A DNA stretch of 56,146 bases from Candidatus Omnitrophota bacterium (GTDB lineage: Bacteria > Ratteibacteria > UBA8468 > B48-G9 > DTJG01): contig JAMDAS010000025.1 of assembly GCA_023484085.1 (NCBI GenBank), positions 1 through 56,146 on the forward strand. The letters are read 5' to 3'. The notes under the pieces were generated by a model that worked only from the letters and a program-made list of their open reading frames with translations, made no database searches and was not told the origin of the DNA. Made by a program: the position numbers and the translations under genes. The first letter of the stretch is position 1; every line of letters starts with the position of its first letter. Shown piece by piece: positions 25,878-46,448 of the stretch.

Positions 25878-25930
25878 GTATTTGTAAATACAAAAAAATA
25901 CTTGACAAATAAAAAATGGTATGATATTTT
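25878..25930 (+). promoter_or_regulatory. Promoter and operator of the GntR/LacI hybrid regulator gene
   Basis: TTGACA (25902-25907), 17 bp and TATTTT (25925-25930) form one candidate promoter; an extended -10 TGGTATGAT at 25917-25925 is another. Upstream is the inverted repeat GTATTTGTAAATAC (25878-25891). Its half TTTGTAAATA is shared with the long inverted repeat at 28663-28691, suggesting autoregulation. The leader before the ATG at 25939 would be only a few bases. Confidence 0.6.
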
Positions 25931-25938
25931 ATTATTAT

Positions 25939-27117
25939 ATGAAACATAAAAAGCAGGAAAATTTCATAGCGCCCTATCTTGAAGTAAAAGAGGACTTGCA
26001 AAAGAAAATAAAAAAGGGAAAAGGTGTATATGCAACTGGTGAAAGGATTCCCTCTGAGATGGAGTTATCACGGCACTATCATGTAAGCAGACCAACACTG
26101 AAGAAGGCTCTTTCCCTTCTTGTATCCGAGGGATACATATTCCAGATTCCGGGCCGCGGAACTTTCATTAATTCCCCGGACAATGAAATCTTTCAGCGGC
26201 AGATTGAATCACGCCGCCAGTTCAAACGGATGAACAAGGGGATTGGGGTTTTGGTTCCATGTATTACTGAATCGCTTTATCCCGGAATTCTGCGCGGTAT
26301 AGAGGATTTCTGCAAGAAAAAAGGTTATCACGTAATCCTCGGGAATTCAGATGCAACATCTGAAAAAGAACAGGAGTATATGATAATGTTCACGGAACGC
26401 GGAGTATCAGGTTTAATCATAGCTGTTTCCTATCAGTCCCATTTAAATCCCTATTATGCCACGTTGAAGAAGTGCAGGATTCCCTTTGTTCTTGTAGACG
26501 TTTCAATTGCCGGGATAGAAGCAGACCTTGTTGCGACCGATAATACAATGGGTGCTTATCTTGGAACAAGACGTCTTATAGAAAAGGGCTGTAAAAACAT
26601 TGCATTCATCTGCGGATGGAAGGAAGTATCAAGTTCTGTGGAAAGATTGGAGGGGTACCAGAAAGCCCTTGCAGAAGCCGGTCTTCCATTTCAAAGACAG
26701 ATTGTAAGACATGGTGAGTTTTCCCGGGAATTTGGCTATAATGCAGCCATGGACGTACTCGCTAAAAATTCCATAGACAGTATATTTTCTGCAAACGAGC
26801 CAATTACGCTTGGTGTATTCAGAGCTGTAGGTGAACTTAGTTCTCAAATTTCTCAAAAAATAAACATAGTGTCTTTTGACGAACCAGACGTTCCTCCATG
26901 GTTAAACAATCCTGTTGTTTTAGTTAGTCAGCCGCGATATGAAATAGGGCAAACTGCTGCGCAACTGCTTTTAGAGAGAATTTCAAAAAAGAATGTTTCA
27001 ATCACAAATTCTTACAAAAGAATTCTTCTTAGTCCGCTGCTACATAACGTAAATACAAAGGAACATAAAGTGGTTTTCTCCTCGCCATTCTTGCGGCAAT
27101 GTTACTACCGGCATTAG
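25939..27117 (+). CDS. GntR-type DNA-binding/LacI-type ligand-binding hybrid transcription regulator
   Basis: The N-terminal 75 residues are a GntR winged helix (LKEDLQKKIKKG-like opening, GERIPSEMELSRHYHVSRPTLKKALSLLVSEGYIFQIPGRGTFI). Residues ~95-380 are a LacI/periplasmic-binding-protein-like sensor (IGVLVPCITESLYPGILRGIEDF, DNTMGAYLGTRRLIEKGCKNIAFI, NIVSFDEP). This is the AraR-type architecture for sugar-responsive repressors. The frame is open from 25921, but 25939 fits the promoters better. The last ~15 codons run out of frame through the pseudopilin remnant, so the original C-terminus was probably replaced by the same deletion that damaged that gene. Confidence 0.9.
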   Translation: MKHKKQENFIAPYLEVKEDLQKKIKKGKGVYATGERIPSEMELSRHYHVSRPTLKKALSLLVSEGYIFQIPGRGTFINSPDNEIFQRQIESRRQFKRMNKGIGVLVPCITESLYPGILRGIEDFCKKKGYHVILGNSDATSEKEQEYMIMFTERGVSGLIIAVSYQSHLNPYYATLKKCRIPFVLVDVSIAGIEADLVATDNTMGAYLGTRRLIEKGCKNIAFICGWKEVSSSVERLEGYQKALAEAGLPFQRQIVRHGEFSREFGYNAAMDVLAKNSIDSIFSANEPITLGVFRAVGELSSQISQKINIVSFDEPDVPPWLNNPVVLVSQPRYEIGQTAAQLLLERISKKNVSITNSYKRILLSPLLHNVNTKEHKVVFSSPFLRQCYYRH

Positions 27118-27740
27118 CAGCTGCAAGGGAAAAGGCAAGACAGAGTGTTTGTCTGAATAATCTGCATCAAATTGGACTTGCTTGCTTAATGTATGCCCAG
27201 GATTACCACACTTTTTATGGAGCAGGGGCTTTCCCCTACTATGGGGCTTATGGTACATGGTCTCCTGTTGCAAATCTTAATCTTTTATATGGTCCATATA
27301 TAAAATCATCTGCTACATTTGTATGTCCGGATGCCGTAATAAAAGGTCTTGACCATGTTGCAACAGGAACATCTCTTACTTCTCTTGGGCCCGGGGAGAC
27401 ATGGCAGGAGATTGGTGGTTGGCCTGACTACGGGGAATATCATGTTTCTTATGCATATTATGGTATACAGTATGGTTCTGCTCTCACAGATGCTGCTAAT
27501 CCTGATTCAGTTTTAGCCGCTGATCAGTCAGCAAAGTATATCTATGGGAAAAATAGTCCGTGGTTTTTTTATTTTGTTGATAACAATGGATATTTTAATA
27601 CTTCCGCTGTTCCAAATCATTCTGGAGGAGCTAATGCCTTATATGTTAGTGGTAACGTAAAATGGGTTCCGAATGGTGACCTGAGAAAAGATATTCAGGA
27701 AACGGATGTAAGTGGATATCATACATTATCCAATCCTTAA
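27072..27740 (+). pseudogene. Pseudopilin (DUF1559-like) gene with damaged N-terminus
   Basis: From 27072 the frame reads [24 protein letters not shown], then CLNNLHQIGLACLMYAQDYH and NHSGGANALYVSGNVKWVP. Intact paralogues have [20 protein letters not shown], so TLIE and VVIAII appear to be missing, and a TAA at 27066-27068 closes the frame two codons upstream. No start codon or ribosome site precedes the helix; only the ATG at 27099, inside the former helix, is available. The prepilin-peptidase site is therefore lost. The rest (~213 codons) is intact, and the H-X9-DG tail is present as H-X9-SG. Confidence 0.75.
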
Positions 27741-27758
27741 AAAGGGGGGGTGAAAAAA

Positions 27759-28637
27759 ATGCGAAATGTAATGCAATGGAATGAAGTCCGCCAGTCCGCC
27801 AATCTTTTTGGAGGACGCCAATCCTTATGGCGGAAAGAAGTGAATAGCAACGGAAGAGCCGCCTTTTCCTTAATAGAGCTCCTGGTTGTCATAGCAATCA
27901 TAGCCATTCTTGCGGCTATGTTGCTGCCGGCACTGGAGGCTGCAAGGCAGAAAGCCAGAGCGGATGTCTGCTTGAATAATCTGAAAGAAATAGGTCTTGC
28001 TTTTTCAATGTATCTGAATGACTGGAATGAACAATATCCGCCTCTTGTGGAAGAAAATGCAGGCTTAGGGCCAAGTTATAAAGAAATAGGTTGGATAGAA
28101 CTCCTTCAGCCCTATCTTCATTTTCAGATTCAATATCTTGCACCAGGTGCCAATGGATTTGGGAGTCCAGGGCAACTTGCTGTTTGCCCGCAACTATTCA
28201 TATGTCCTGCAGTAATGGCAAATTATACTACTGATTGGACAGCCTATTTTGATATCGGTTCTATTTATGGATATTCCGATGCAATAAGTTCGGGTATTGG
28301 CTGGCCTTCTTGGCTCCCTATTAAAGAATCAGTTATAAAAAGTCCTTCAAACCAGGTGGTTGTGGCTGAAGATATATATGGCTGGAGATTTTATTACTGG
28401 AACCAATTTATTGCTGGACATGGACTTGGAATAACTGATGCATATAGTTCCCCACAACAACAACAAACCAGTACAGAAGAAGGTAGTGTATTAATGGCTG
28501 ATGGGCATGTAGAATCCCATCCATATAGCTGGGCCATAGCCACAAAGGGGAATTGGAATGGATATAATTTAAATGCAAATCCAGGTGCTGCATATATGGG
28601 TCCCTGGGATACTTTCTATCATATCCCCGGCACTTGA
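27759..28637 (+). CDS. Pseudopilin, DUF1559-like (prepilin-type N-terminal helix)
   Basis: The 292-residue protein has [23 protein letters not shown] with the prepilin-peptidase glutamate. The head domain has [26 protein letters not shown], several cysteines and a tail [18 protein letters not shown] (S-X9-DG in place of H-X9-DG). A ggggggtgaaaaaa ribosome site precedes the ATG at 27759. GTG at 27750 and GTG at 27840 (short leader VNSNGRA) are alternatives. The extended leader (residues 1-27) shares MRNVM...RQSLWRKE with the pseudopilin at 41588. It probably acts in a type II secretion or type IV-pilus-like envelope assembly linked to the secreted enzymes downstream. Confidence 0.88.
27783..27815 (-). 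repeat. Short dispersed repeat, copy in the pseudopilin leader
   Basis: The minus strand of this segment (TCCTCCAAAAAGATTGGCGG, then ACTGGCGGACTT) matches 46393-46427 on the plus strand with few changes, in opposite orientation. Here it lies inside codons of the pseudopilin leader; the other copy is intergenic. Confidence 0.5.
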
Positions 28638-28707: not shown

Positions 28708-30081
28708 ATGATGAAAAAAAATTTGAATATTGGTATAATTGTGAGCTTTTTGATTTTTATTACTTCAGGGAACGTCTTCGCCCAATTAAACGGACAGTCA
28801 TCTTTAAATGAAAATACAAATTTTGGGAAAGCATATAATCAGTTTATTTCCGCACCTGTAAAAAGTTATGATTTTTCCCCTTGTATATCTTCATTTAACA
28901 CAATTGCCGCTGAAACCAGCAGCAAAAAAACAAAAACGTCTGCGCGGTTTTTTCTTCTACTCTCCTATTTTTGTTCCACAAATTTTGATAAGGCTTATAA
29001 TGAAATAAAAACCATATATACAAGAAAACTTTATCCGGAAAATAAAACAACCACTGTTTTGCTTCCAAAGGTAATGAACGAATATGAAGTAGGTCATTCG
29101 TCATTTCAGAGATTATTAATAAACAATTCATTGATAAAGGTTATTATGCCCGGAGAAAATGTCAGTGATCTTGTCGGGATTGAAAAAACCATAAAAATTT
29201 TTGATACCCAAAAAGAATTATCCCTTATGCAACCCACTACGGTATATAAAAACGCCCGGGAAAAAATAAATAAATTAGAAAAAGAAACAACAACTGATAA
29301 ACAGAAAAAGATAATGGACATGATGAAAAAAAACGTTGATATGATGAAGATGCCCTCTACAAGAAACTTTTACAAGATGACTGATGTGCTCTCCATTCTT
29401 ATAGAAGATAGCAGTTTTAATGGTATGAGAAACTCTATAACAAAGACAATAGGACTTTCCATATGCGCTCAAAATCTGCGACAAATAGGCATAGCATTTC
29501 ATCTATATCTGCTTGACCATAATGACTATTTTCCACCTCTTACCGTGAAGGACCGGGTACCTAATGGTACGCCAGACCAGGCTGGTAAAGGATGGATCCA
29601 ATTATTAGAGCCATATCTTGGTCTGAAAAACGTCATAGTAAAAGCAGGTGGCTGGGATAATGGATATATCCCCTTAGTTCCATCCTTATTTGACTGTCCG
29701 ACAAGACAACATTCCTGGACAATGTATGCAACCGGTGAGTATGGATATAATGATTATGTAAGCAGAGGCGGTCCTACGCCTGGATGGCCATTTTACAAGT
29801 GGTGTAAATTTTCATATGTTCCAAAACCTGATATTCAGGTGGTTGTTGCGGAGTCGTTATATGGCTCTCGTTTGTATGGTAATCATCAATTTGTAGCTCC
29901 GCATGGTCATATTCAAGTTGATGGGAATAGTTCTGTGGATTTGCAAAAAACCAGTACTTCTTTAGGAAACGTTTTATATGCAGATGGACATGTGGAAGCA
30001 CATCCGTTTAGTTGGGCAATAAGTTGGCCATATGGATATTTAAAAGGTGGAAACGACCCCTGGGATACGATGACTAAATAA
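28708..30081 (+). CDS. Sec-exported protein with a pseudopilin-type head domain but no prepilin helix
   Basis: Residues 1-25 form a Sec signal peptide (ending NVFA|Q). Residues ~30-250 are an unrecognised, mostly helical, Lys-rich region. Residues ~255-457 are clearly homologous to the head of the pseudopilin at 27759: CAQNLRQIGIAFHLYLLDHNDYFPPL, VVVAESLYG, GNVLYADGHVEAHPFSWAI and a closing PWDTM. The prepilin motif and hydrophobic helix are absent, replaced by the signal peptide and new domain. This is either a gene fusion or a head domain recycled as a periplasmic or extracellular module. A strong aggagga ribosome site precedes the start. Confidence 0.85.
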   Translation: MMKKNLNIGIIVSFLIFITSGNVFAQLNGQSSLNENTNFGKAYNQFISAPVKSYDFSPCISSFNTIAAETSSKKTKTSARFFLLLSYFCSTNFDKAYNEIKTIYTRKLYPENKTTTVLLPKVMNEYEVGHSSFQRLLINNSLIKVIMPGENVSDLVGIEKTIKIFDTQKELSLMQPTTVYKNAREKINKLEKETTTDKQKKIMDMMKKNVDMMKMPSTRNFYKMTDVLSILIEDSSFNGMRNSITKTIGLSICAQNLRQIGIAFHLYLLDHNDYFPPLTVKDRVPNGTPDQAGKGWIQLLEPYLGLKNVIVKAGGWDNGYIPLVPSLFDCPTRQHSWTMYATGEYGYNDYVSRGGPTPGWPFYKWCKFSYVPKPDIQVVVAESLYGSRLYGNHQFVAPHGHIQVDGNSSVDLQKTSTSLGNVLYADGHVEAHPFSWAISWPYGYLKGGNDPWDTMTK

Positions 30082-30148: not shown

Positions 30149-33100
30149 ATGAAAAAAGAAATTAGAAAAATTTTGGGCTCTATTATGTTTACCGCATCAT
30201 TTACACTGATTTTTTGTTTTTCAGCAAAAGCAGAACATACGCTTCCACAATTATATTATAAATTATCTACAAGTATTGTAACACCTCATATTTCATGGGC
30301 AAATCCTTATTATAAGGGACCATTGCATATACTTGTTATAGCCCCGAGATGGCGGCAGAGAGATACAGTAGAGCTGATGGAACGCCTGGATGCGAAGGTT
30401 ACACCGGTTTTTTGTTTTAATGACAGCAGTCTTTATTTAAATGGATGGGATTGGGGTTTTGAGAAAGCAAAGGGAATCCAGAAACAGGCAGTTGAAAAAT
30501 CCCTGGATGATGCTTTAATAAGAAATTATGACGTAATTATCCTTGCCTATGCACCTATACAAACCTTTCCCAAATCTGCAGTTGAAAGCATTTTAAGAAA
30601 AGTTGAAGCAGGTACAGGACTTGTATACATTTATCCAGGGAACACAATTCCCAATAACCCTTTTGTTAAAGAACTGACACTAACGTCATTATCAGGAGTA
30701 GAGCAATCTGCAGTATCAGGAATTCCTGTTGAATGTTTACAGCTCAGGAATTATACAGGTCCTCCTAAAAGTGAAAAAGAATTGAAAAATTTTCTTTCTT
30801 TTTATAGATATGGAAATGGAAAAGTGGCTATGGTTAATTTAAACAGTACAGGTTTTCTTGCTTATCCTGCAGGTAATGATTTGGACTTTGAAACGTATAC
30901 TGCATACATGATAAACGTAATACTTGGGGTAAGCAAAAAACAAAGTCAGATACAATATACTACTTATCAACCATTTTTAAGTTCAGATGCAGGCAAGCCG
31001 TTCAATTATAAATTATCCCTGGATAATACGGGAAATTCCTTGAGAGCAAATATTACAATATCTGTCCATCCATTTAAGCAATTGTTTGTTCCCAAAGAAC
31101 CGGAAGTAAACCAGGGAATAAATAATGCGTCAGGATATATTGCTTCATACTGGAAAGAAAAGAAAAATATATCTTTACCTGCAGGACAATCTAACGTTTC
31201 TTTTGCAATTCCAGGACTTGCTGCCGGAAATTATTATATTTTTGTACAGGTTTTATCTGGAGGAAAAAAGGTATCATTTTGTATTCAAAAACTTACAGTT
31301 AAATCCGGGATTAAAATAGAAAAAGTTCAGATAACACCTTCAGCCATGGATTTAAATAATTCAAACAGGAATATTAAGGTTGAATTAGATTTAAGTGCTC
31401 CTGCACCATCAAATTCATCTTTATCCGCTGTTTTACTTGATAATTATGACAGGATTCTTGATGCCAAAACTTTTGAAATAAAACAAAATAGTAATAACGA
31501 ACAATTCAATCTTTCAGTTAACCATATTTTTTCAACCCTTGGAAAAGTTAGGGTAATACTTTCTATAAACAAAAAAATAATGTCTGTAAAAACCGGCTAT
31601 TTTACGGTTTATCACAGAAAATGGCCCAATTTTACGTTTTTTGCCTGGGGAGGAGAAACAGGTTCTTATGATTATGATATGATGAGAAAAATTGAAGTTT
31701 CAATGGGAGTAGATGCTTTTAGAGGTGGGGACTCCATAGAAACGCTTAGGATTGCAGATGATAGATGTATTCCTGATATGTATAGACTTCTTGCAGGCGT
31801 AAAAAATGGGAAAGTAGAACCTTCTTATGTTAACCCTGATAATCGCATTGAAAGGGCAAAACAAATTTTTTCTGCTGTTAAAGATACCATGCCATTTGAC
31901 CCGTATGCCTATCTTCAGGGTGATGAGTTTGGTTTTATTAATGGTGGTTTACCTGGTGCATCCAAAGGGAAAAACTCTATAGAAGATTTCAGGAGATACT
32001 TAAAAGCTAAATATAAAACTATTGATAATCTTAATAAACAGTGGGGATTTAATTATGATTCTTTTTATCAGATAGAGCCGGTTACAACAGGAAGTAAGGT
32101 TGATGCCGCCAGGAAAGCCCTTGATTTTTCATATCTTATTGACCAGTGGACGTATAACTGGTATGTCTTTGGAGATTCCGTCAGGTTTTATCATGATGCA
32201 TTAAAGGATATAGACCCTACGGCAAAACTTGGATTATCCACACCTCTATGGAATTATTATTACCGTGCCTATGACTGGCCTGTTCTTATGAAATATATTG
32301 AATTTTTTACACCATATAATGATTTTGGCGGTGATGCCCATTATGACATTGCCCGGTGTTTTGCAAAACCAGGTACAGTATTAAGTCAGCACTATGGTTC
32401 TTACTCTAATGTTTTAAACAATCTTCCTTACTACAAGGTAATGCCCTATGCATTGCTACTTGATGGCTGCCAAAATCTTTTCTGGTATAACTTGGGTTTT
32501 GGTGATGAATCAGGAATTTCACCTTCAATGACCCCATACCCGGGTTTTGAAACGACTTCCCTTGAAGTAAAAAAAATTAAAAGCGGGATTGGAAATCTAT
32601 TTGTTCATTCCAGCAGGATAAAAGGCAGGATTGGCATAGAATACAATGAACCTTCTTTCCTTTTTTCTTTTCTTGTTTCTTCTCCAAACGTTCCATGGAC
32701 GTATAATGAATTGAGGACTTGTCTTTCAAACCTTGGTTATGACTATCAATTTATCTCAGACAGTCAGATTTTAAAAGGAGGGCTTTCATCTTATAAGATT
32801 CTTTTTTTACCTGTTTCTCAATGTATCAGTTCAAGACTGTCAAAAAAATTAAAAGAATTTGTTGAAGGTGGAGGTCTTCTTATTGCAGTCGTAAAACCTG
32901 GTCTTTTTGACGGACATGGAAAATATTATGGAAAATCAAGTCCGAGCAGCAGAATTTTTGGGCTTGAGTGGAAAAATCCTTTACAACAACTTGGGCTTGG
33001 ATGGAAAAAGCCTTTACAACAATCCTCACCTGGAAAAATTCATCAGATAACGGGCAAATATAAAAATGAAAAATTTCAATGGACGTTTAAGTCGGATGAA

Positions 33101-33862
33101 CAGATTTCTGTTGATACATCTGTAATTCTTGATGGTGCAACTCCAATATCAATGTTTAAAGGAGCACCGCTGGTTACGTACAACAATGTTGGAAAGGGGG
33201 TTGCAATTTGTTTAAATTTTATTTCATACGGTCAGAATATTAACGCTAATATTATTTCTGCAATCCTTTCTGCACAGGGTATATATCCGCCTGTTGACAT
33301 TGCACCTGATCCGGCTAAAGGCAGTCCTGGCAAATGGATAAAGAATTTTAGATTTACAAGGTTTTCAGATGGCAGTGCTCTATACTGCGGATTTTCCCGC
33401 CTGGAAGGCAAAAAACCTGTTTCAATTACAATAAAATTTAAAAATAAAGGCTATGTATATGACGTTCTTACAGGTAAATATCTTGGAGAACATAAAACAT
33501 TGAGGACAATAGTTAACCCTTATGATGCAGGAATATATGCAATTTTGCAATATAAAATTACAGGATTATCAGGCAGTCTTGAAACACAAAGTCTGCCCCG
33601 GGGTGAAGAAGTAAAAGGGGACGTCCAGATTAATGTTTCAGGGAAAATTCCAGGTTATCAGGTAATCCATTTAGATGTTATCAGACCCGATGGAAAAGAG
33701 CCGGTGTATTTACGACAAAACCTTGTATCAATAAATGGCGTGCCGGCAAAATTTTCTGTTCCAATGGCTCTTAATGAATTGACAGGGATATGGAAACTGA
33801 AATTTACTGAACCTGTATCTCAAAAATCAACAACTTTAAGTTTCACACTTACTAAAAAATAG
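30149..33862 (+). CDS. Secreted GH42-like giant protein with a substituted nucleophile position
   Basis: This is a 1,237-residue protein with signal peptide 1-28 (SAKA|E). Order: an amidotransferase/ThuA-like alpha/beta domain (~50-230), beta-sandwich domains (~270-480), a GH42-like TIM barrel (~490-800), a GH42 trimerisation-like Rossmann domain (~830-930, ILKGGLSSYKILFLPV...FVEGGGLLIAV), and a C-terminal MG/Ig-like domain (VIRPDGKEPVYL). QGDEF (E593) is the expected acid/base. Where the downstream paralogue has GLEYGG, this protein has SQHYGS (H748), so the nucleophile glutamate appears to be missing. ggggga precedes the start. It may bind rather than cleave glycans. Confidence 0.82.
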   Translation: MKKEIRKILGSIMFTASFTLIFCFSAKAEHTLPQLYYKLSTSIVTPHISWANPYYKGPLHILVIAPRWRQRDTVELMERLDAKVTPVFCFNDSSLYLNGWDWGFEKAKGIQKQAVEKSLDDALIRNYDVIILAYAPIQTFPKSAVESILRKVEAGTGLVYIYPGNTIPNNPFVKELTLTSLSGVEQSAVSGIPVECLQLRNYTGPPKSEKELKNFLSFYRYGNGKVAMVNLNSTGFLAYPAGNDLDFETYTAYMINVILGVSKKQSQIQYTTYQPFLSSDAGKPFNYKLSLDNTGNSLRANITISVHPFKQLFVPKEPEVNQGINNASGYIASYWKEKKNISLPAGQSNVSFAIPGLAAGNYYIFVQVLSGGKKVSFCIQKLTVKSGIKIEKVQITPSAMDLNNSNRNIKVELDLSAPAPSNSSLSAVLLDNYDRILDAKTFEIKQNSNNEQFNLSVNHIFSTLGKVRVILSINKKIMSVKTGYFTVYHRKWPNFTFFAWGGETGSYDYDMMRKIEVSMGVDAFRGGDSIETLRIADDRCIPDMYRLLAGVKNGKVEPSYVNPDNRIERAKQIFSAVKDTMPFDPYAYLQGDEFGFINGGLPGASKGKNSIEDFRRYLKAKYKTIDNLNKQWGFNYDSFYQIEPVTTGSKVDAARKALDFSYLIDQWTYNWYVFGDSVRFYHDALKDIDPTAKLGLSTPLWNYYYRAYDWPVLMKYIEFFTPYNDFGGDAHYDIARCFAKPGTVLSQHYGSYSNVLNNLPYYKVMPYALLLDGCQNLFWYNLGFGDESGISPSMTPYPGFETTSLEVKKIKSGIGNLFVHSSRIKGRIGIEYNEPSFLFSFLVSSPNVPWTYNELRTCLSNLGYDYQFISDSQILKGGLSSYKILFLPVSQCISSRLSKKLKEFVEGGGLLIAVVKPGLFDGHGKYYGKSSPSSRIFGLEWKNPLQQLGLGWKKPLQQSSPGKIHQITGKYKNEKFQWTFKSDEQISVDTSVILDGATPISMFKGAPLVTYNNVGKGVAICLNFISYGQNINANIISAILSAQGIYPPVDIAPDPAKGSPGKWIKNFRFTRFSDGSALYCGFSRLEGKKPVSITIKFKNKGYVYDVLTGKYLGEHKTLRTIVNPYDAGIYAILQYKITGLSGSLETQSLPRGEEVKGDVQINVSGKIPGYQVIHLDVIRPDGKEPVYLRQNLVSINGVPAKFSVPMALNELTGIWKLKFTEPVSQKSTTLSFTLTKK

Positions 33863-33907: not shown

Positions 33908-36900
33908 ATGCCAAAATTGAAGACGTATTTGTTCCTGTCTTTTTTTATACTTTTGTTCCTGTCTTTTTCCGGTTACAGCCAGCAGACTCACCCATCAAAA
34001 ATAAGTCATGGTACTCCATACTGGTGGAATAGCGGTGCAAAATGGAAAGAACCTCAAATTTTAAGAAAGGCATACTGGATATGGAACCGTAAAGACATGC
34101 TGGCTGATATGGATAAAGGCAACACTTTTGTATTTTCAAAAAAAATAGAAGTTCCATCAGATATTTCTAAAGCCTTTATTCTTATTTCTGCACAGGGTTA
34201 TTATAAATTTTATGTAAATGGTAAAGAGGTGGGGAGTGATACTGACGTAGTAACGCTTGACAGGTATGACGTAAAAAATTTTCTGAAGCATGGGGAAAAC
34301 AGCCTTATGATTGAATCAAAAAGTGATACCTGGTATGCAGGATTGTTCGTTGCAGGAACTGTTTCCCTGAAAAACGGGAAAAAACTGAAAATTCTAAGTA
34401 ACAATTCATGGAATATAGCCCAAAAGGGACAGTTACAAACAAAACCGGCCGCTGAACTCGTTCGCGGGGTTAATGGCGGATTTTGGAATAATGTTGGCAG
34501 AAAAATGGTCATGCCCTCTTTATGGTATAAGTTAAATACAAAACTTAATGTTCCTGGTATCGGGTGGGCAAACCCCTATTATGCAGGAGGAAAAATAAAA
34601 GTATTGGTGATTCAGCCGAGGGCACAACAAAGGGATACAGTGGAATTGGTTGACGATACGAATTTTAACGTATCCACAGTGTTTTCTGATGCAAACCAAT
34701 TTAATGAGCAACATTCAGGTGCGCCATTTTTTGAAGTTATGAAGGGGATGTCTGTCCAAACAATAGAAGCAAACATAAAAAAAGCACTGAGAACAGAACC
34801 GGACGTAATTATTCTCGGTGGATTTGGATATGACACTGACAGGATTTTCAAAACCACACTGGAGGATTTTCTAAAAACATATCTAATTAATGGAGGTGGT
34901 CTGATTTATCTGGAAGGTGCAATTCCTGATAAAACGTTTGAAAAAGAAATCACTGCAAACATTGTTAAACAGATACCGGATTTTTTAAATACAGGTTTTC
35001 CTTATAAAGACCTTCCTGGCTTTAAAAGTTTTCAAAATACGGCAAGCTTGTTTACTTTCGGGAAAGGCCGTATAGTATGCCTGAACAACAACGTTTTTGG
35101 AGGTTATGGTCTATTTGCCAACGTTCCTTCAGATACAAGTGACCTTGATTATCAGTATTACATGTTATCTGCCATAAAAGAAATCTTATGGACGTCTCAC
35201 GATGAACCGGCTACGACTTTTAAAAATTTCCCTGAAGACATAGATTCAAATGGAAAGAACAAACAAATAACGTTCACACTTTTACACGTTGCCAGACCTA
35301 TGACCGTTACCATGGAGGTTATGTCAAAAAAAATACTTTTTAATCTGCCTGAACAGCCAATAACAAACCAGGGGGAGAAAAGAGGGGGATTTTCACTGTT
35401 TCCTGTGTATAAATCTTCCCAAAGAATAAAACAGGGGAAAGAGGTTTTTTGTTCCTTTAACGTTCCTTTTCTTCCTTCCGGGAAATATTATGCAAACATA
35501 ATCTTGTCTGAAAATGGTAAATACGTGAATTGGGCGACGGCGTTTTTATCTGTCAATCATGAGTTTGCCATATCTCAAATTAAACTTTCAAAAAAATATA
35601 TAGACGTTGCAGATGGGAGAAAAGACAGTATAGGGGCTACCGTAACATTTACAAAACCTGCACCAGAAAATACAGTAGTTGAATTTTCACTGATAGATAA
35701 TTATTACAGGATTTTAGCCACAAAAAGAATAATCATTAAACCCGGCTCAACGCATGTGAACGTTTTATTTCCTGTTTCAGGGTTTATCACCACCCTTGGT
35801 AAAATTCATGCGGCTCTTCATGTAAACAATAATCTTGTGTCAGTAAAAACGGCTGATTTTACTGCCATACGCAGAGACTGGAACAGGTTTACGTTTTTTG
35901 CCTGGACAGCAGGAGATTCCGGGCACCAGGGCAATGTTTATCTGAGAGAGCTTGCGAATCTCGGGCTGGATGCTTCCCGTGGTGCAAAAATTAATATCAA
36001 ATGGCTTGAGGCGGCAGATATGGTAGCACTTCCGGCTTATCCCATATTAAGTACCACAGAACCTATGGAAAAGATAAAAAAAGAATATAGCTCGTATGCT
36101 GCTGAAATAATAAACAGTCAATTAAGATTTGACCCTATTGTATTCAATGCAGGAGATGAATTTTATTATCCCGGAGGAGATGAATCCCCTGCAATGGTCA
36201 TGGAATTCAGGAAATACCTTGAAAACAAGTATAAAACTATTCAGACTCTCAATAACGACTGGGGAACTAATTATTCAACCTTTGAGGATATATATCCATT
36301 GACAATGAAGGATACTAAAACTCTTACTCCTGCAGGTGCTTTTGAAAGTGTGGATAACTTCTTAAAAAAAGCCAATTCGGATAAAAACTATAGCCGATAC
36401 CTTGACCAGTGGCTAAATGATTATAACGTATACTTTAATATTTTTAAGTCTGCACGCCAGGCATTAAAAAAAGTATACCCATATGCAAGAGTGGGAGTGG
36501 ACTGTCCTATGTGGCCGGATGCATATTCAGGACATGACTGGTTTAGATTTATGCAGGACTTTGACTATTTTGCGCCATATGGAAGGAATGGTGAAATCAT
36601 TCCTGAAAAAGAAGCGCGTTCCTATAAAAAACAGGGCCAGTTTATCGGACTGGAATATGGCGGGTATAATTATATGGCTTTCAACAGAAAAGAAGAACTC
36701 ACGGATACTGCCTGGCAGCATTGGAGAATCTGGAATGGTTTGTTGAATGGGTTTACGAGTATCTGGTGGTATCAATTAACTCCTCCCGGCAATGAATGTA
36801 ATTTAAGTCCCGGTTTTCTTCCTTATTCTACATTGAAAACGGCAGCAGACGATATATCTAAAATCAGGGATGGCTACTATACCCTTTTTAACGGTAGAAA

Positions 36901-38167
36901 TATAAAAAGAATTTATGGCCCTGTCGCCATATATGATTCCATCAGAAGCCGTCTTGTGGATACATGGCTGCCGTCGGAATTTGGCTCAGGGACTTTAGGT
37001 AATAATATGGACGTTCATGTGTTAATGCATATTCTTCAGCATTTTTGCGGGATGCCGTACACTTTCATATCTTCCCGGCAAATACTTAATGGAGAGTTGG
37101 GTAAATATAAAGTTCTTATGATGCCTGAATCTGTTTCAATAAAAAATAATGTAGCAAAAGAGTTAATCCGTTTTGTAAAAAATGGAGGTATTCTTATTGC
37201 GGATGTAAGACCTGGTATTTTTAACGGTAAAGGTGAATGGAACGATACGATTCCCTCTCTTTTTGGAATATCATACAAAAAAGAATTGAAACGTGAAAAA
37301 GTACAGGGAAACATTAATGGAATATTATTGGAAAAAAAGATAGATATTTCTTCTTTGGAACCTTTTCCTGCAGATGCATCTCTTCAGCTAAATGGAGCAA
37401 AACCCGTTAGTGAAATAAACAATATTCCACTGCTTATAGTAAACCAAATTGGTAAAGGCAAGTCCATATGTTTAAATATCCCGTTTAATTATTATAGAGG
37501 CACTATCATGCCTGATTCTCTATATGCATACTGGGGGGATAAAAAACAGAATATATTAATTGCCTCTATTCTAAATATGTTATTCAGAACGCTCAATATT
37601 CATAAGCCTGTCAGAATAGAAACAGAAAATGGGAAATGGCCCATCAGAATGGCAGTAACATACCTCAAAGATGGACAGGCGCAATATATCGGCATAACCA
37701 GGCAAAGAAACAGCGATTCAGAAAAATCCGTTAAAATAACCATATATCCTCCGGTAGCCGGTTATGTCTATAACGTGCTTACCGGAAAATACATTGGAAA
37801 AAAGTCCTCGTTTACAACCTTAGTTCATCCTGTTGACGTCGGGATTTTTTCAGTGCTTCCCTACAAATTAAAAGGAATAGCGATAAGTTCTTCTGAAAAA
37901 GTAAGAAGAGGCGAAACTCTCAAAGGTGAGATTTTTCTGCAGACTGATGAAAAAACTCCGGCGAACTGCAGACATGTTATTCATCTTTCCGTGATAAGAC
38001 CTGATGGGAAAAACGTTTCTTACCTTTCCACCAATTTACAAACGGATAATGGTAAGGCTGATTTTTCTATTCCTTTTGTTCTTAATGAACCAAAAGGAAA
38101 ATGGAAATTACAGTTTACGGATGTAGCTACCGGGATATTAAAATCATTCATAATGGATGTTTATTAA
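33908..38167 (+). CDS. Secreted GH42-like beta-galactosidase family giant protein
   Basis: This is a 1,419-residue paralogue of the upstream gene. Signal peptide 1-24 is followed by a lectin-like jelly-roll (~45-185: WIWNRKDM, FSKKIEVP, YYKFYVNGKEVGSD), like the N-terminal sugar-binding domains of rhamnosidases, then the amidotransferase-like domain, beta-sandwich domains and a GH42-like barrel with FNAGDEF (E751, acid/base) and FIGLEYGG (E916, nucleophile), 165 residues apart as in GH42. The trimerisation-like domain and C-terminal MG/Ig-like domain follow. GH42 enzymes remove beta-galactosyl or related sugars, but substrate is not fixed by sequence. It is 45 bases after its paralogue with a ggggggaatt ribosome site. 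Confidence 0.85.
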   Translation: MPKLKTYLFLSFFILLFLSFSGYSQQTHPSKISHGTPYWWNSGAKWKEPQILRKAYWIWNRKDMLADMDKGNTFVFSKKIEVPSDISKAFILISAQGYYKFYVNGKEVGSDTDVVTLDRYDVKNFLKHGENSLMIESKSDTWYAGLFVAGTVSLKNGKKLKILSNNSWNIAQKGQLQTKPAAELVRGVNGGFWNNVGRKMVMPSLWYKLNTKLNVPGIGWANPYYAGGKIKVLVIQPRAQQRDTVELVDDTNFNVSTVFSDANQFNEQHSGAPFFEVMKGMSVQTIEANIKKALRTEPDVIILGGFGYDTDRIFKTTLEDFLKTYLINGGGLIYLEGAIPDKTFEKEITANIVKQIPDFLNTGFPYKDLPGFKSFQNTASLFTFGKGRIVCLNNNVFGGYGLFANVPSDTSDLDYQYYMLSAIKEILWTSHDEPATTFKNFPEDIDSNGKNKQITFTLLHVARPMTVTMEVMSKKILFNLPEQPITNQGEKRGGFSLFPVYKSSQRIKQGKEVFCSFNVPFLPSGKYYANIILSENGKYVNWATAFLSVNHEFAISQIKLSKKYIDVADGRKDSIGATVTFTKPAPENTVVEFSLIDNYYRILATKRIIIKPGSTHVNVLFPVSGFITTLGKIHAALHVNNNLVSVKTADFTAIRRDWNRFTFFAWTAGDSGHQGNVYLRELANLGLDASRGAKINIKWLEAADMVALPAYPILSTTEPMEKIKKEYSSYAAEIINSQLRFDPIVFNAGDEFYYPGGDESPAMVMEFRKYLENKYKTIQTLNNDWGTNYSTFEDIYPLTMKDTKTLTPAGAFESVDNFLKKANSDKNYSRYLDQWLNDYNVYFNIFKSARQALKKVYPYARVGVDCPMWPDAYSGHDWFRFMQDFDYFAPYGRNGEIIPEKEARSYKKQGQFIGLEYGGYNYMAFNRKEELTDTAWQHWRIWNGLLNGFTSIWWYQLTPPGNECNLSPGFLPYSTLKTAADDISKIRDGYYTLFNGRNIKRIYGPVAIYDSIRSRLVDTWLPSEFGSGTLGNNMDVHVLMHILQHFCGMPYTFISSRQILNGELGKYKVLMMPESVSIKNNVAKELIRFVKNGGILIADVRPGIFNGKGEWNDTIPSLFGISYKKELKREKVQGNINGILLEKKIDISSLEPFPADASLQLNGAKPVSEINNIPLLIVNQIGKGKSICLNIPFNYYRGTIMPDSLYAYWGDKKQNILIASILNMLFRTLNIHKPVRIETENGKWPIRMAVTYLKDGQAQYIGITRQRNSDSEKSVKITIYPPVAGYVYNVLTGKYIGKKSSFTTLVHPVDVGIFSVLPYKLKGIAISSSEKVRRGETLKGEIFLQTDEKTPANCRHVIHLSVIRPDGKNVSYLSTNLQTDNGKADFSIPFVLNEPKGKWKLQFTDVATGILKSFIMDVY

Positions 38168-40489: not shown

Positions 40490-41569
40490 ATGACGGTTAA
40501 AACGAAAAGATTATCAAAGGAAAATCAGCCGCTTCCATTATGGTGGCAGTTAAAGGAAAAAATAAAAGAGGAAATTGTAAATAATAAATTTCTGCCAGGG
40601 TATGAATTATCCACTGAAATGGAGTTAATGTCAGAATATGAAGTAAGCAGAATAACGGCAGTAAAAGCACTTTCCGAACTTACGTCTGAAGGACTAATAT
40701 ACCGTATCCAGGGTAAGGGGACATTTGTAAAGGACAACAAGCCTATATTTAATAATGAAGAAATTGTTGGTCTGGTTATGCCTACTACAGGACATCTATT
40801 TGACCATCTCTCAAAAAAAATTATACATGGACTTTCTGAACATCACTACTTTTGTATTGTTATTAATTATGCCTGTGAAAACAGGAAAAGTATAAAGAAA
40901 ATAAAGGATTTGATAGATAGACATCCGGCAATTCTCGTTATTCAGGGTATTTCTAAATTCCCATTCTATCTTCTTGACAATTATCCGGGTAAAGTTATTT
41001 TTTTTAATTGTTTTGAAGCAGAAAAAAAATTGGTTAGGGCAAGGTATATCCTGTCTGACTATTTTGAAGGAGGCAGGTTTGTGGCAGAACATTTTCTTTC
41101 TCTTGGTCATAAAAAAATCATTATCTATACCTATCCAATATTCCCTGACCAGAAAAGTCAGATAAATTTAATTGAAGGGGTAAAAAAGACGTTCAGAGAA
41201 AAAAACCTGTCGGAGAAAAATCTTATGATTATTACGGATGAGGACCGGATTTTAAAGGCATTGGAAACAGAAGAAAAACCTATGGCTGTATTTTGTGATG
41301 GAGATTTCAGGGCAAAATTGATTTATGAAACAGCAGAAAAACTAAATTTAAGAATCCCGGGTGACATTTCTGTTGTTGGATATAATAATACGCCGTGGTG
41401 TGAAATATTTCAGCCAAATCTTACGTCAGTATCTATCAGGGAAGAAGAACTTGCAGATTACGTGATAGAAGAGATAACAGACAAAAACAAGAATAAAGAA
41501 ATACTTATTCCACCAAAACTTATTATCAGAGAATCAACAATTGCTGTAGATAAACTACAGATTTATTAA
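40490..41569 (+). CDS. GntR-type DNA-binding/LacI-type ligand-binding hybrid transcription regulator (second copy)
   Basis: The 359-residue protein has an N-terminal GntR winged helix (LPLWWQLKEKIKEEIVNNKFLPGYELSTEMELMSEYEVSRITAVKAL..., residues 14-80, ending IQGKGTFV) and a LacI-like sensor (EEIVGLVMPTTGHLFDHLSKKIIHGL, YFEGGRFVAEHFLSLGHKKIIIY, GDISVVGYNNTPWCEIFQPNLTSV). It is a diverged paralogue of the regulator at 25939 and, like it, stands at the head of a pseudopilin/secreted-enzyme locus. gagga precedes the start. It probably senses a sugar released by the locus B enzymes. Confidence 0.92.
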   Translation: MTVKTKRLSKENQPLPLWWQLKEKIKEEIVNNKFLPGYELSTEMELMSEYEVSRITAVKALSELTSEGLIYRIQGKGTFVKDNKPIFNNEEIVGLVMPTTGHLFDHLSKKIIHGLSEHHYFCIVINYACENRKSIKKIKDLIDRHPAILVIQGISKFPFYLLDNYPGKVIFFNCFEAEKKLVRARYILSDYFEGGRFVAEHFLSLGHKKIIIYTYPIFPDQKSQINLIEGVKKTFREKNLSEKNLMIITDEDRILKALETEEKPMAVFCDGDFRAKLIYETAEKLNLRIPGDISVVGYNNTPWCEIFQPNLTSVSIREEELADYVIEEITDKNKNKEILIPPKLIIRESTIAVDKLQIY

Positions 41570-41587
41570 GAGAGGAGGTGAAAACAG

Positions 41588-42514
41588 ATGCGAAATGTAA
41601 TGTACGGAGTGAAACGAAGCATCCGCCAATCCTTATGGCGGAAAGAAATAATAATCAGCAAAAACACCGAAAAGGAGGAAAATAAAATGTTTACAAAACA
41701 GACAGAAGCAAGGAAAGGAAACACAAAAACCGGCTTCACGTTAATAGAATTATTGGTTGTCATTGCCATCATTGCCATCCTTGCGGCAATGTTGCTGCCA
41801 GCGTTGGCAAAGGCACGGGAAAAAGCAAGACAGGCAGTATCTATCAGTAATATGAAGCAACTCGCACTTGCGATGGCAATGTATCTGAATGATTATAACC
41901 AGACCTATCCTCCTATGTATGTCAATTGGGACCCGTGGGGATTAGGGGCTCAGGAGGGAGTAGGGACATTTTGGGCATATCAATTATATCCATATGTGAA
42001 AAACTGGAAGGTTTACTATGACCCGGATGAGTCAGAGTATTATCAGGGATATAATCCTTCTTTAGGGTTGGGAAAACCAGGACTTGCAAATCAAAATGCC
42101 GAAGGACAGCCTGTGATGTGGAACTATATGGGCTATGGTTATAATGTAGGGTTTAGCAATGAATATGATATGGGACTTTGTGAAATATTCACTATGCCAA
42201 ATATGGCTATTACAAGCAACATGGTAACAACACCATCACAAACATTATTATTTGGTGAAAGTGCAGTCCCGACAAGTTCAACTCCATGGTGGGGTTATGG
42301 TCCTGATATGTTAAGCTGGCAGGGATGGCAGCTTGATACTTTCCAATATCGTCACAGTGGAGGAGCGGACATTGCTTTCTGTGATGGACATGTTCAGTGG
42401 TATCCAAAGTCTGACCTTGAAAACAGGGAGTATTATAACAATCAGACTCCCAATCCCAACTTTGTACCTGGCTGGCCCTGGACAAGGGATGGGAAAGGAG
42501 TACCAGGACCATAA
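41588..42514 (+). CDS. Pseudopilin, DUF1559-like (prepilin-type helix, H-X9-DG tail)
   Basis: The protein carries [25 protein letters not shown] followed by [37 protein letters not shown] and ends with [19 protein letters not shown], an intact H-X9-DG tail. Two starts are plausible. ATG 41588 (after gaggaggtgaaaacag) gives 308 residues with a long leader sharing MRNVM...RQSLWRKE with the pseudopilin at 27759. ATG 41687 (after aaggaggaaaataaa) gives 275 residues and an ordinary 16-residue leader. The long form is listed because the upstream peptide is conserved in frame in two genes. It probably acts in an inner-membrane-anchored fibre or secretion pseudopilus. Confidence 0.9.
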
Positions 42515-42582
42515 AGAAATTTTTAATTAATAGTTGATTTGTATAATATATATTTTATTTATCCATTATTTGGAGGAGAATT

Positions 42583-42795
42583 ATGCCTGAAAAAAAAAGT
42601 AATCCGGTGGCAATAGTGATTTTAATTATTATTATAGTGGCGGCTATTTTCTTTATTATTAAACAAACAACAAAAAAGCCGGCAGGAGCAATGCCAGCTC
42701 CGACAAAATTATTACCACAACCGCCTTTACCCAAATTGAAATCATCATCGTATTATATGAAAAAGTATCAACAAGAAAAAACAGTGAAGAAGTGA
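42583..42795 (+). CDS. Small single-span membrane protein downstream of the pseudopilin
   Basis: This 70-residue protein has a short charged start (MPEKKSNP), one membrane helix (VAIVILIIIIVAAIFFII, residues 8-25), then a Lys/Pro-rich tail (KKPAGAMPAPTKLLPQPPLP). Tggaggagaatt gives a strong ribosome site, which supports it as a real gene. Topology is probably N-in, with the proline-rich tail in the periplasm. The function is not known. The position between the pseudopilin and the giant secreted proteins suggests an accessory envelope role. Confidence 0.8.
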   Translation: MPEKKSNPVAIVILIIIIVAAIFFIIKQTTKKPAGAMPAPTKLLPQPPLPKLKSSSYYMKKYQQEKTVKK

Positions 42796-42927
42796 AGAGA
42801 TAAAGGTAACTTATTTATATCTATTATGGAAATATTTTAATGTGTGTATGTAGATATGAATCTTGCGTGGATATATTATAGAAAGTATTTATAAGTATAT
42901 TTTTGAACGAAAAAATGGGAGGATAAG

Positions 42928-45900
42928 ATGAAGAGAATTTTAGCAATAAGTATATTGTTGGGTTTATTTTCTATAGGATATGTATTTGGCAGTAGTATAA
43001 GCATTCAGAAAAAGCCGGCTGTTTTATTTGTCGGATATGGTGCTAATAATTATATTATTGCAAGAGATTTATATAAGGATGGATTTACACTCAATAATTT
43101 TACCCAATCTTTGTTGACATGGGATGAAGTAAGAAATTATAATGTAATAGTTCTTACAGGTACAGGTCTTGGTCCTTCAAACTCAGATTTCACATTAACA
43201 CAGATAAACAAACAGAATATATCAGTACTAAAAAAATTTTTATCAGCAGGTGGGGGTATTTTATATATTCCTTACTGGGGGGAAATGAATTCTGCGATTC
43301 CTCCTCAGGATGCATTTGGGAAAGATATTGGAATAAAACCTTTGTTTAGAGATGTCATATTTGATTCCGAGACACAGAAAATTGCAACTGCATGGGCACT
43401 TCCATTTGCATGGACAAATAACATTACTTCTTCTCCAATAACTGAAGATATCAAAAGTCTATGGTATCCATGTGCGACCCGTTCTGGTGGGATATTGCAT
43501 ACAATCACATTCATTCCGGATAGCCATTGGCATGTTGTAGTAAAAGGATTACCCTCATCTCATACAGAAAAATTTTCACTTTTACTTTATAGTTTTACAA
43601 GTGGAGGTAAAAAAGGCTTTTACTCAACAGAAGTTCCACTTGTAGCATGCCGGCAATTTAAGAAAGGAAGAATTGTGTGTTTATCAATTTCCTCAGATTA
43701 TTTATTTGGAACTTATGCCAATACCACGCTTGAAGGGATTGTTCTGAATAAAGGATTAGATGGAAAACCCTCAAATGGATATCAACTTATTCAGAATTCC
43801 CTTCAATGGTTGTCAGAACCATCGATGAAAAAAAACATTCTTGGTGGAGCAGGTATGGACGTGTCTTTACTTAAAAATCCATATAAGGTGCAATTTGCCA
43901 CTCCATATAATTGGAGTAGTCCACAAAGTATTCCGGCATCTCCGCACTGGTATAAAGGGGTCATAGGAGCGCAGGCGAGATATAATAATTGGACAGGAAA
44001 ATGGAATATAAAAGACTGGGTGGAAACAGCAAAAAAAGATGGATTATCATACATTGTTTTTCTTGAGCCGTTTTCCAGTCTTACAAAAGAACAGTTGGAG
44101 CAGCTAAAAGAAGAATGCAAAAAATATACAACCAATGATTTTACAGCAATACCAGGATTCACAATTAAAGATGAGCTCGGCAATCATTATTTTTATTTTG
44201 GTGAAAATACTCCATACCCGGCAAAAAAATATCTTTCTTCAAATGGGAAAGTATTTGTTTCTTATGACCCTCAGGTAGGAGGGAACCCATATCAGAAAGG
44301 ACAACTTGCAATGACAACACTTGATTATGCCTATACAGATGGTGGATTTAATCTTACAGCAGGCAACTACTTATTTTCAAAGAATCCCATACCATTTTAT
44401 AATTTTTATTCAGACTGGGATGCAATGGGAGTAATAACAAGCAAAAATAATAAGATAATAGATAATAGTATTCCCGGATATTTACAGCTTGTTGATTTTG
44501 GACAGGACCCATTACCAATGGCAATAGATTTAATGAACAATCCCAACTTACTGAAAAAAGCACAATGGTTTACAATGGTAAGTGCACCGAATATATCAAA
44601 TTATTTTAGTTCATGGCATTTTTGGCCTGTAGGTGGTAATAGTATGTATATTACAAATGGACCAAAGATAGAATTTTATAATTATTTAGGCCCTCGTGAT
44701 TATGACCAGTACAGCAATGGTAATTTTATATGGCAGAATTACAGATGGTTATACCATGGGGAAGTAACATCAAAAGCAGGGCTGAAAGAAATAACAATAT
44801 ATGATGGGACAAAGCTTTTCAGACGATTTTTGGCTCATGGGAAGAAACAATTTCAATTTACATTAGACCTGACACATGATAAACAGCACTATCTTGTTTT
44901 AGTTGCTACTGATATTTATGGCAGACAGGCAATATCCAGAGACATTATTGACAGAAACCAAAAATTTGAATTATTCCAGTGCTCTGACAGAAATAATCAG
45001 CTGACTTATAGCCGTTTAATAAGAAAGGATGGTACATGGGTAAGTGGGAATGGAGGGGATACTCCGAATAAACGGCTTGGCGCAAAGCAAATAAACCCTG
45101 CAGGAAATTTTTATAATGACCCACGGCTTGGAGCACCTGCATTTGATGGTTCAGCAGGTGGAGACCCTGTCTTTTTCTCCCCTGTTATCTGTAATTCTAT
45201 GAAAGGACAGATTCAATCTCCAAATGTGGTAGATGCATTAAGTTTACTTGCAGAAGGAAATGTGCAGATAGGACAAGGAATATGGAAATGGAATTTTGCT
45301 GATAACATCAATGTATATAATGTATGGCATACACTATGGAGAACACAACCAGCAAAAGAATTTACCATGACAAAAACAAACTATTCCTTTAATTTAGACC
45401 CGAATAGTCCCATTGCAGTATATTTGTGGGATATTCACATCAGACTTTTAAAAGACATACCAAACAATGGATTCATTATTGGATTTATAAGTCCATCTGA
45501 ATCAACAACCTGGGCAATAAAAAGCGGAAATAATCTTTATTCAGGGATATATAATAAAGGACAACAAAAAAATATCACTGAACCATTTAACAAAGGGGAT
45601 TATGTTGCGGATTTGAATTCTCCATTGGGAGGTATGGCAATATATCCTTTAACAAATGGGCTACAGGTATCAACAACAGTGCCGCAGAGAAATTATATAT
45701 ACATCAATCTGCCAAAACAAAACTCACCGCAGAAAAAAGGACAGACAAAGGATATAAAACTATTGTTTATCGGAATTCCAAGAAACACACCCCTTACAAG
45801 AACCTTTTATCCATCTCCGTTAAATAAAGTGGTAAAGAAATTTCAGGAACAGTTCGGGCTTGGTTCTGATGGAAAAACAGGATATAACCTGAATATAAAA

Positions 45901-46350
45901 ACAGGGAAGATTATAAATAAAAGATATGTGCTTGATATTGAGGCTGGAAAATACAAATGCTTCTCAGGTAGTATCACCGGCAATTTAATCTCAACGCTGC
46001 CAATAGTAGTATCAAACCTTGGCAACAGGGATTCAGTGTATTTATATGACAGTGGGCTGAAAAAAGCAAGACCACTTGGGATTTTTGATAAGAAAGCATA
46101 TTCAGTCATAACATTACATGGTAGCAGGAATATCTTTATAGGGGAGCCCATTATCTGCGGCAATCCCAAAATATTTGCTCATGTAACCCAGACAGGGGAA
46201 AACACATGGAATATTGAATTTAATAATCCGACAAATAAAACAATAACAACCTCTGTCCAAATAAATCCATACTTTGACCCGCTGAAAGGGAAAACCATAA
46301 AAGAGGAAATTACAATAGCGCCCGGCGCTTCTATATCCAAAACAATATAA
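42928..46350 (+). CDS. Secreted giant protein with amidotransferase-like and PHP-like segments (paralogue 1)
   Basis: The 1,140-residue protein has a signal peptide (MKRILAISILLGLFSIGYVFG, about 1-22) nearly identical to that of the next gene. An amidotransferase/ThuA-like domain follows (~30-290: PAVLFVGYGANNYIIARDLYKDGF, ISVLKKFLSAGGGILYIPYWG). Around 345-430, HWYKGVIGAQARYNNWTG to AIPGFTIKDELGNHYFYFG resembles the PHP metallophosphoesterase fold as seen in bacterial surface proteins, but the usual FTDH is replaced by FLEPF. The C-terminal half is beta-rich and unrecognised. gggaggataag is the ribosome site. Substrate and activity are unknown. Confidence 0.75.
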   Translation: MKRILAISILLGLFSIGYVFGSSISIQKKPAVLFVGYGANNYIIARDLYKDGFTLNNFTQSLLTWDEVRNYNVIVLTGTGLGPSNSDFTLTQINKQNISVLKKFLSAGGGILYIPYWGEMNSAIPPQDAFGKDIGIKPLFRDVIFDSETQKIATAWALPFAWTNNITSSPITEDIKSLWYPCATRSGGILHTITFIPDSHWHVVVKGLPSSHTEKFSLLLYSFTSGGKKGFYSTEVPLVACRQFKKGRIVCLSISSDYLFGTYANTTLEGIVLNKGLDGKPSNGYQLIQNSLQWLSEPSMKKNILGGAGMDVSLLKNPYKVQFATPYNWSSPQSIPASPHWYKGVIGAQARYNNWTGKWNIKDWVETAKKDGLSYIVFLEPFSSLTKEQLEQLKEECKKYTTNDFTAIPGFTIKDELGNHYFYFGENTPYPAKKYLSSNGKVFVSYDPQVGGNPYQKGQLAMTTLDYAYTDGGFNLTAGNYLFSKNPIPFYNFYSDWDAMGVITSKNNKIIDNSIPGYLQLVDFGQDPLPMAIDLMNNPNLLKKAQWFTMVSAPNISNYFSSWHFWPVGGNSMYITNGPKIEFYNYLGPRDYDQYSNGNFIWQNYRWLYHGEVTSKAGLKEITIYDGTKLFRRFLAHGKKQFQFTLDLTHDKQHYLVLVATDIYGRQAISRDIIDRNQKFELFQCSDRNNQLTYSRLIRKDGTWVSGNGGDTPNKRLGAKQINPAGNFYNDPRLGAPAFDGSAGGDPVFFSPVICNSMKGQIQSPNVVDALSLLAEGNVQIGQGIWKWNFADNINVYNVWHTLWRTQPAKEFTMTKTNYSFNLDPNSPIAVYLWDIHIRLLKDIPNNGFIIGFISPSESTTWAIKSGNNLYSGIYNKGQQKNITEPFNKGDYVADLNSPLGGMAIYPLTNGLQVSTTVPQRNYIYINLPKQNSPQKKGQTKDIKLLFIGIPRNTPLTRTFYPSPLNKVVKKFQEQFGLGSDGKTGYNLNIKTGKIINKRYVLDIEAGKYKCFSGSITGNLISTLPIVVSNLGNRDSVYLYDSGLKKARPLGIFDKKAYSVITLHGSRNIFIGEPIICGNPKIFAHVTQTGENTWNIEFNNPTNKTITTSVQINPYFDPLKGKTIKEEITIAPGASISKTI

Positions 46351-46369
46351 CAAACAATATGTTTTACTC

Positions 46370-46386
46370 TTAAATACTCAGCTAAC
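46370..46386 (-). promoter_or_regulatory. Weak copy of the operator-like motif upstream of the 46449 gene
   Basis: On the minus strand this reads GTTAGCTGAGTATTTAA, differing at four positions from GTTCACTGAATATTTAC found upstream of the 17037-19460 glycosidase. It lies 63-79 bp before the next gene. Confidence 0.35.
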
Positions 46387-46392
46387 GGTGTT

Positions 46393-46444
46393 TCCTCCAA
46401 AAATATTGGCGGACTACCGGACTGAAGGTACAAAATTTGGAGGA
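46393..46444 (+). promoter_or_regulatory. Hairpin that pairs with the ribosome site of the 46449 gene; contains a dispersed repeat
   Basis: TCCTCCAAA (46393-46401) is the exact complement of TTTGGAGGA (46436-46444), the Shine-Dalgarno of the next gene, so the mRNA could hide its own ribosome site. The left arm and loop (46393-46427) match the minus strand of 27783-27815. Confidence 0.5.
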
Positions 46445-46448
46445 TAAA

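Follow-up and report, generated by a model that had tools for sequence, protein, structure and literature searches.

A pseudopilin-type head on a predicted exported protein lacking the pilin helix in a glycosidase cassette of a Candidatus Omnitrophota bacterium

The head domain of a DUF1559-type pseudopilin is found here at the C-terminus of a 457-aa protein that starts with a predicted Sec-type signal peptide and continues with about 220 residues of other, probably helical sequence. Its gene (28708-30081, plus strand) is located on contig JAMDAS010000025.1 of a Candidatus Omnitrophota draft genome (GCA_023484085.1), from which a stretch of 56,146 nucleotides, called the window in the following, was analyzed. 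Type IV pilins and type II pseudopilins are recognized by a GFxxxE-type leader and a hydrophobic N-terminal helix leading into the head, and the 457-aa protein has neither of them. We tentatively favor the reading that it is an exported soluble protein acting off the fibre, an accessory glycan-binding or adaptor protein of a cassette of regulator, pseudopilin and glycosidase genes, in which export, ligand and adaptor role are all inferred. The gene and its surroundings contain the following features:

25921..27117, plus strand: GntR/LacI-type regulator heading the cassette (sequence reading; relatives precede pilins in other genomes)
27099..27740, plus strand: first pseudopilin, with a damaged leader, overlapping the regulator (sequence reading)
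27750..28637, plus strand: second, true pseudopilin with the closest head (N_methyl PF07963 and TIGR02532 over cut-off; sister in the head tree)
28708..28785, plus strand: predicted Sec-type signal peptide of the 457-aa protein, MMKKNLNIGIIVSFLIFITSGNVFA, cut after VFA (n, h and c regions by eye; hydropathy peak 1.94)
28786..29454, plus strand: N-terminal domain of about 220 aa (residues ~27-249), probably alpha-helical, no Pfam family
29455..30078, plus strand: pseudopilin (DUF1559-type) head, residues ~250-457, with Cys253 and Cys330 kept and Ser416 in place of the H-X9-DG His
30149..33862, plus strand: large exported protein of GH42-like type, the next gene downstream (above cut-off for PF08532 and PF02449)
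33908..38167, plus strand: another large exported protein of this GH42-like type (likewise above cut-off for PF08532 and PF02449)

The 457-aa protein is translated from a single open frame with a Shine-Dalgarno sequence (AGGAGG) upstream of its ATG. Residues 1 to ~26 followed by Q, with VFA at positions -3 to -1, fit by eye a Sec signal cleaved by signal peptidase I, and the earlier description of the N-terminus as such a signal plus about 220 residues without Pfam family or prepilin helix was confirmed. The motif [GASC][FY]xxxE is absent from the entire protein, neither PF07963 nor TIGR02532 matches it, and the most hydrophobic 19-residue window beyond the signal peptide (starting at residue 248, inside the head) reaches only 0.97, compared to 3.12 in the pilin helix of the neighbor. 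The initial annotation had named two findings that could have undone its reading, a hidden prepilin helix near residue 250 and a frameshift or joining error between two genes; neither was seen, as the region around residue 250 holds no GFxxxE motif and the frame is continuous with equal GC3 in both halves (N-domain 0.302, head 0.303). A pilin subunit requires the leader and the helix for processing and assembly. Because both are missing here, processing by prepilin peptidase and packing into a pseudopilus are not to be expected. Soluble pilins for crystallization were made by removing the N-terminal helix, and the 457-aa protein resembles a natural version of these helix-deleted forms, but with an added helical domain.

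The assignment of the C-terminal ~200 residues to the head type of the neighboring pseudopilin, also proposed at the outset, was well supported. The two heads share 45% identity over residues 250-441 in a genome search (E 5e-39) and 43% over 199 aa in a pairwise alignment (E 4e-42), and all sequence strings quoted for the match are present. DUF1559 (PF07596, SBP_bac_10) is a large paralogous family of Planctomycetes and their PVC relatives, whose model matches the 457-aa protein only at residues 253-308 and barely above the Pfam gathering cut-off (23.5 vs 23.3 bits, E 6.8e-5); judged by sequence, membership is thus marginal by Pfam alone and firm through the neighboring pseudopilin. The NCBIfam model H-X9-DG-CTERM (TIGR04294) stays below its cut-off with 13.1 of the required 19 bits. 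The His of this motif is conserved in at least 90% of 32 heads, whereas both the 457-aa protein (at Ser416) and its neighbor have TST at the site, and this common loss fits common descent. Both conserved cysteines, Cys253 and Cys330, are retained. Among 60 heads, the pair (C.NL and.CP) was complete in 51 and entirely missing in 5, while 2 had the first and 2 the second cysteine only (Fisher p 8e-5); it must be mentioned that one of the latter rows is a slip of the motif finder and that the p value serves as a guide only, the heads being related rather than independent. The retained pair fits an exported and possibly disulfide-bonded head.

Less can be said about the N-terminal domain. It gave no Pfam family above cut-off and no Pfam TPR match, and a hit to Spore_GerAC_N was dismissed (E 0.007-0.03, below cut-off). 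In the 35 genomes of the phylum, we obtained one weak match, 25% identity over ~90 aa (E 1.3e-4), to an exported TPR-like protein (G028:C74), and an orthologue of the domain or of the whole fusion was not found there. A search against viral contigs gave no match, and the whole protein returned one ordinary Lentisphaerae pilin locus from the wider genome contigs. The exact fusion of N-domain and head was found in one genome only. Sequence and profile searches of the PDB with the head yielded no credible relative. AlphaFold2 models were of low confidence for the 457-aa protein (alignment of 7 sequences, mean pLDDT 41.0; helical N-domain, a helix at 235-270 and few strands) and for the pseudopilin 27750-28637 (mean pLDDT 40.6), hence the pilin-type fold of the head and the border between the domains are predicted from sequence.

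The cassette is co-directional with gaps of 9-70 bases and runs from the sugar-type regulator over the pilin with the damaged leader, the second pilin and the 457-aa gene to the two GH42-like genes, the glycosidases carrying no head. The same order of regulator, pilin or pilins and large exported protein is seen again elsewhere in the window, at 40490-46350, as well as in the loci L077, L079, L086 and L092. In L092, from the same genus, three consecutive pilins stand where the locus studied here has pilin, pilin and 457-aa protein; the 457-aa gene fills a pseudopilin's slot in a recurrent cassette. The pseudopilin next to it shares head, cysteine pair, loss of the His and cassette, but carries a prepilin leader with its hydrophobic helix where the 457-aa protein has the Sec signal and the domain of 220 aa. 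Regarding the machinery, T2SSF was found in 34 of the phylum's 35 genomes and a secretin in every one, while the window's own draft genome (62.6% complete) has the secretin and T2SSF was not found in it.

Several observations were made on the pilin genes around this locus. At 27070-27140, the leader of the first pilin is ~10 codons short, has no in-frame start upstream and overlaps with the regulator in another frame, a damage that reflects either gene decay or an error of the assembly. Directly before the leader, several pilin genes of the source genome have a near-identical 5' stretch in common, ATGCGAAATGTAATG...CGAAGCATCCGCCAATCCTTATGGCGG, with the inverted repeat CGCCA/TGGCG (27797-27833 and 41624-41641 in the window; also on G000:C9, C15 and C17). 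With up to 2 mismatches allowed, it matches the genome 10 times, 7 of them ahead of a pilin leader, and the control not once; its conservation is at the DNA level, and it could encode a leader peptide or form an RNA hairpin covering the start. Another family of repeats, GTTTTTACAAAGA.GAGAAGAGCAATCCAGAACTTATTTTCTACTT...TATACCTGTCCGCCAATCTTTTTGGCGG, occurs at L110, L111 and L112 (G000:C4, C8 and C15), not upstream of pilins. Furthermore, in the region 42928-49988, two large exported proteins of 1140 and 1183 aa with similar N-termini adjoin the pilin of the second cassette (40490-46350); both are without a Pfam match.

The initial annotation had regarded the released head as a one-off new use of the domain. 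This view could not be maintained, since other non-pilin carriers were found in the same class, in the same order and in other phyla. The search for further proteins with Sec signal and H-X9-DG head, recommended at the same time, was successful regarding the architecture, while the H-X9-DG label strictly fails with Ser416 in place of the His. In genome G032, from the same class as the source, one protein (L025, G032:C160) combines a Sec-type signal, an NTF2-like region (by eye) and a head, and its orthologues occur in another phylum (L057, G049:C42; L058, G062:C483). Like the 457-aa protein, these three have a non-pilin domain and no GFxxxE motif, but their N-domain is unrelated and their heads belong to another clade (100/100). 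A second G032 protein (L047, G032:C192) likewise has signal, domain and head, but the domain is DUF2059 (E 1e-12) and a TPR-like tail follows. L038, from the same order, carries DUF4190 (37.3 bits against a cut-off of 35) together with the head, and L098 (DUF4190 below cut-off) and L100 (by eye) resemble it; these heads also lack the prepilin leader but are membrane-anchored. An L025-type orthologue at G061:C23 (L095/L097) is broken by a stop and a frameshift, with no head found beyond, the G049 and G062 copies being intact. When 68 genomes of another phylum were queried with L025, only short forms appeared, and those inspected consisted of membrane segments and a head. Generally, off-fibre head proteins are rare, as ~510 head matches (E 1e-5) in the 35 genomes of the phylum included only a handful among those inspected. 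The DUF1559 members retrieved for comparison nearly all bear pilin leaders, and some DUF1559 proteins have been annotated as secreted (PMC2754498). The mostly open-access literature covered for DUF1559 together with pilin or polysaccharide contained no paper on off-fibre heads.

As to descent, 63 heads were placed in a maximum-likelihood tree, in which the head of the 457-aa protein is sister to that of its neighbor 27750-28637 (support 99/93). The remaining four soluble non-pilin heads group far from it, in a separate clade (100/100). Forcing all five into one clade lowered the log-likelihood by 37 (AU p 0.07). Separate loss of the helix on at least two occasions is therefore favored by the sequences, although this p value is no proof.

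In the reading that we tentatively favor, the protein would be exported by Sec in soluble form, with a helical and perhaps TPR-like domain replacing the fibre helix in front of the C-terminal head, and would act either extracellularly or in the periplasm. The head would most likely share its polysaccharide, or its binding partner, with the neighboring pseudopilin, and the N-terminal domain may hold a second partner. This reading is supported by the head homology, the missing leader and membrane helix, the sister position to the neighbor's head with the His lost in both, the retained cysteine pair, the position in the cassette, the presence of secretin and T2SSF in the phylum and the other off-fibre heads; it is weakened by an N-domain without firm homologue, by the failure to find an orthologous fusion in the 35 genomes of the phylum, and by structure models as poor as those above with no solved head relative by sequence. 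A connection of pseudopilins to alginate use was published for Verruconatronum alginivorum, in which a PulG-like pseudopilin with 67 homologues in the genome is part of the alginate clusters and over-expression of a pseudopilin was recorded on alginate (PMC13274419).

The free head could instead dock laterally or at the tip on the pseudopilus of its neighbor and work only together with the fibre, for example by presenting substrate. The initial annotation had named a soluble docking partner as one example of a new use, and a head that might compete for the ligand of the pseudopilin as another. The adjacent genes, the head subtype in common and the machinery in the phylum speak for such a docking partner. 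However, type IV pilin subunits associate chiefly via the N-terminal helix, and it is this main joint that has been lost here, which makes docking unlikely in our view. Heads attached to unrelated exported domains, in a phylum with universal secretins (35/35), might also be address tags read by a type II secretion machinery that exports the N-domain; as the DUF4190-head proteins are membrane-bound and the neighboring glycosidases headless, we regard this as very unlikely.

Two further explanations deny the protein a selected function or even its existence. The fusion might be a relic, made by deletion in a degenerating cassette, which would suit its occurrence in a single genome and the damaged leader of the first pilin. 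We consider this quite unlikely, because the frame of 457 codons and its Shine-Dalgarno sequence are intact, 222 N-domain codons at 32% GC are free of stops, and the head retains its cysteines and motifs on a branch of length 1.04, near the 0.79 of the leader-bearing neighbor. The gene of a Sec-exported protein could also have been joined to a leader-less pilin gene by the assembly. The draft genome is incomplete (62.6%, in 27 contigs), and pilin leaders are near-identical repeats prone to short-read misassembly, with a damaged leader nearby. Nevertheless, no trace of the pilin-leader repeat was found at the domain junction, which speaks against a misassembly driven by repeats, and with a single frame and equal GC3 across it a chimera is highly improbable.

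Beyond this locus, the head seems to be a reusable module outside the cell and not a pilus part alone. It is conceivable, though we put this forward with caution, that the DUF1559 head represents a general extracytoplasmic recognition module that was moved off the pseudopilus repeatedly in several phyla, either onto soluble recipients (TPR-like, NTF2-like or DUF2059) or onto DUF4190-type membrane proteins, and that free and fibre-bound heads for one ligand act in parallel in polysaccharide cassettes. Among the gene families of Planctomycetes and their relatives, DUF1559 ranks with the largest: Planctopirus limnophila has 68 paralogues (PMC10632474) and Rhodopirellula baltica 74 genes (PMC2754498). 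A head that naturally lacks the insoluble helix offers a soluble protein for direct measurements of ligand binding. If free and fibre-bound heads do cooperate, a pilus-type domain would serve as a binding protein in polysaccharide uptake.
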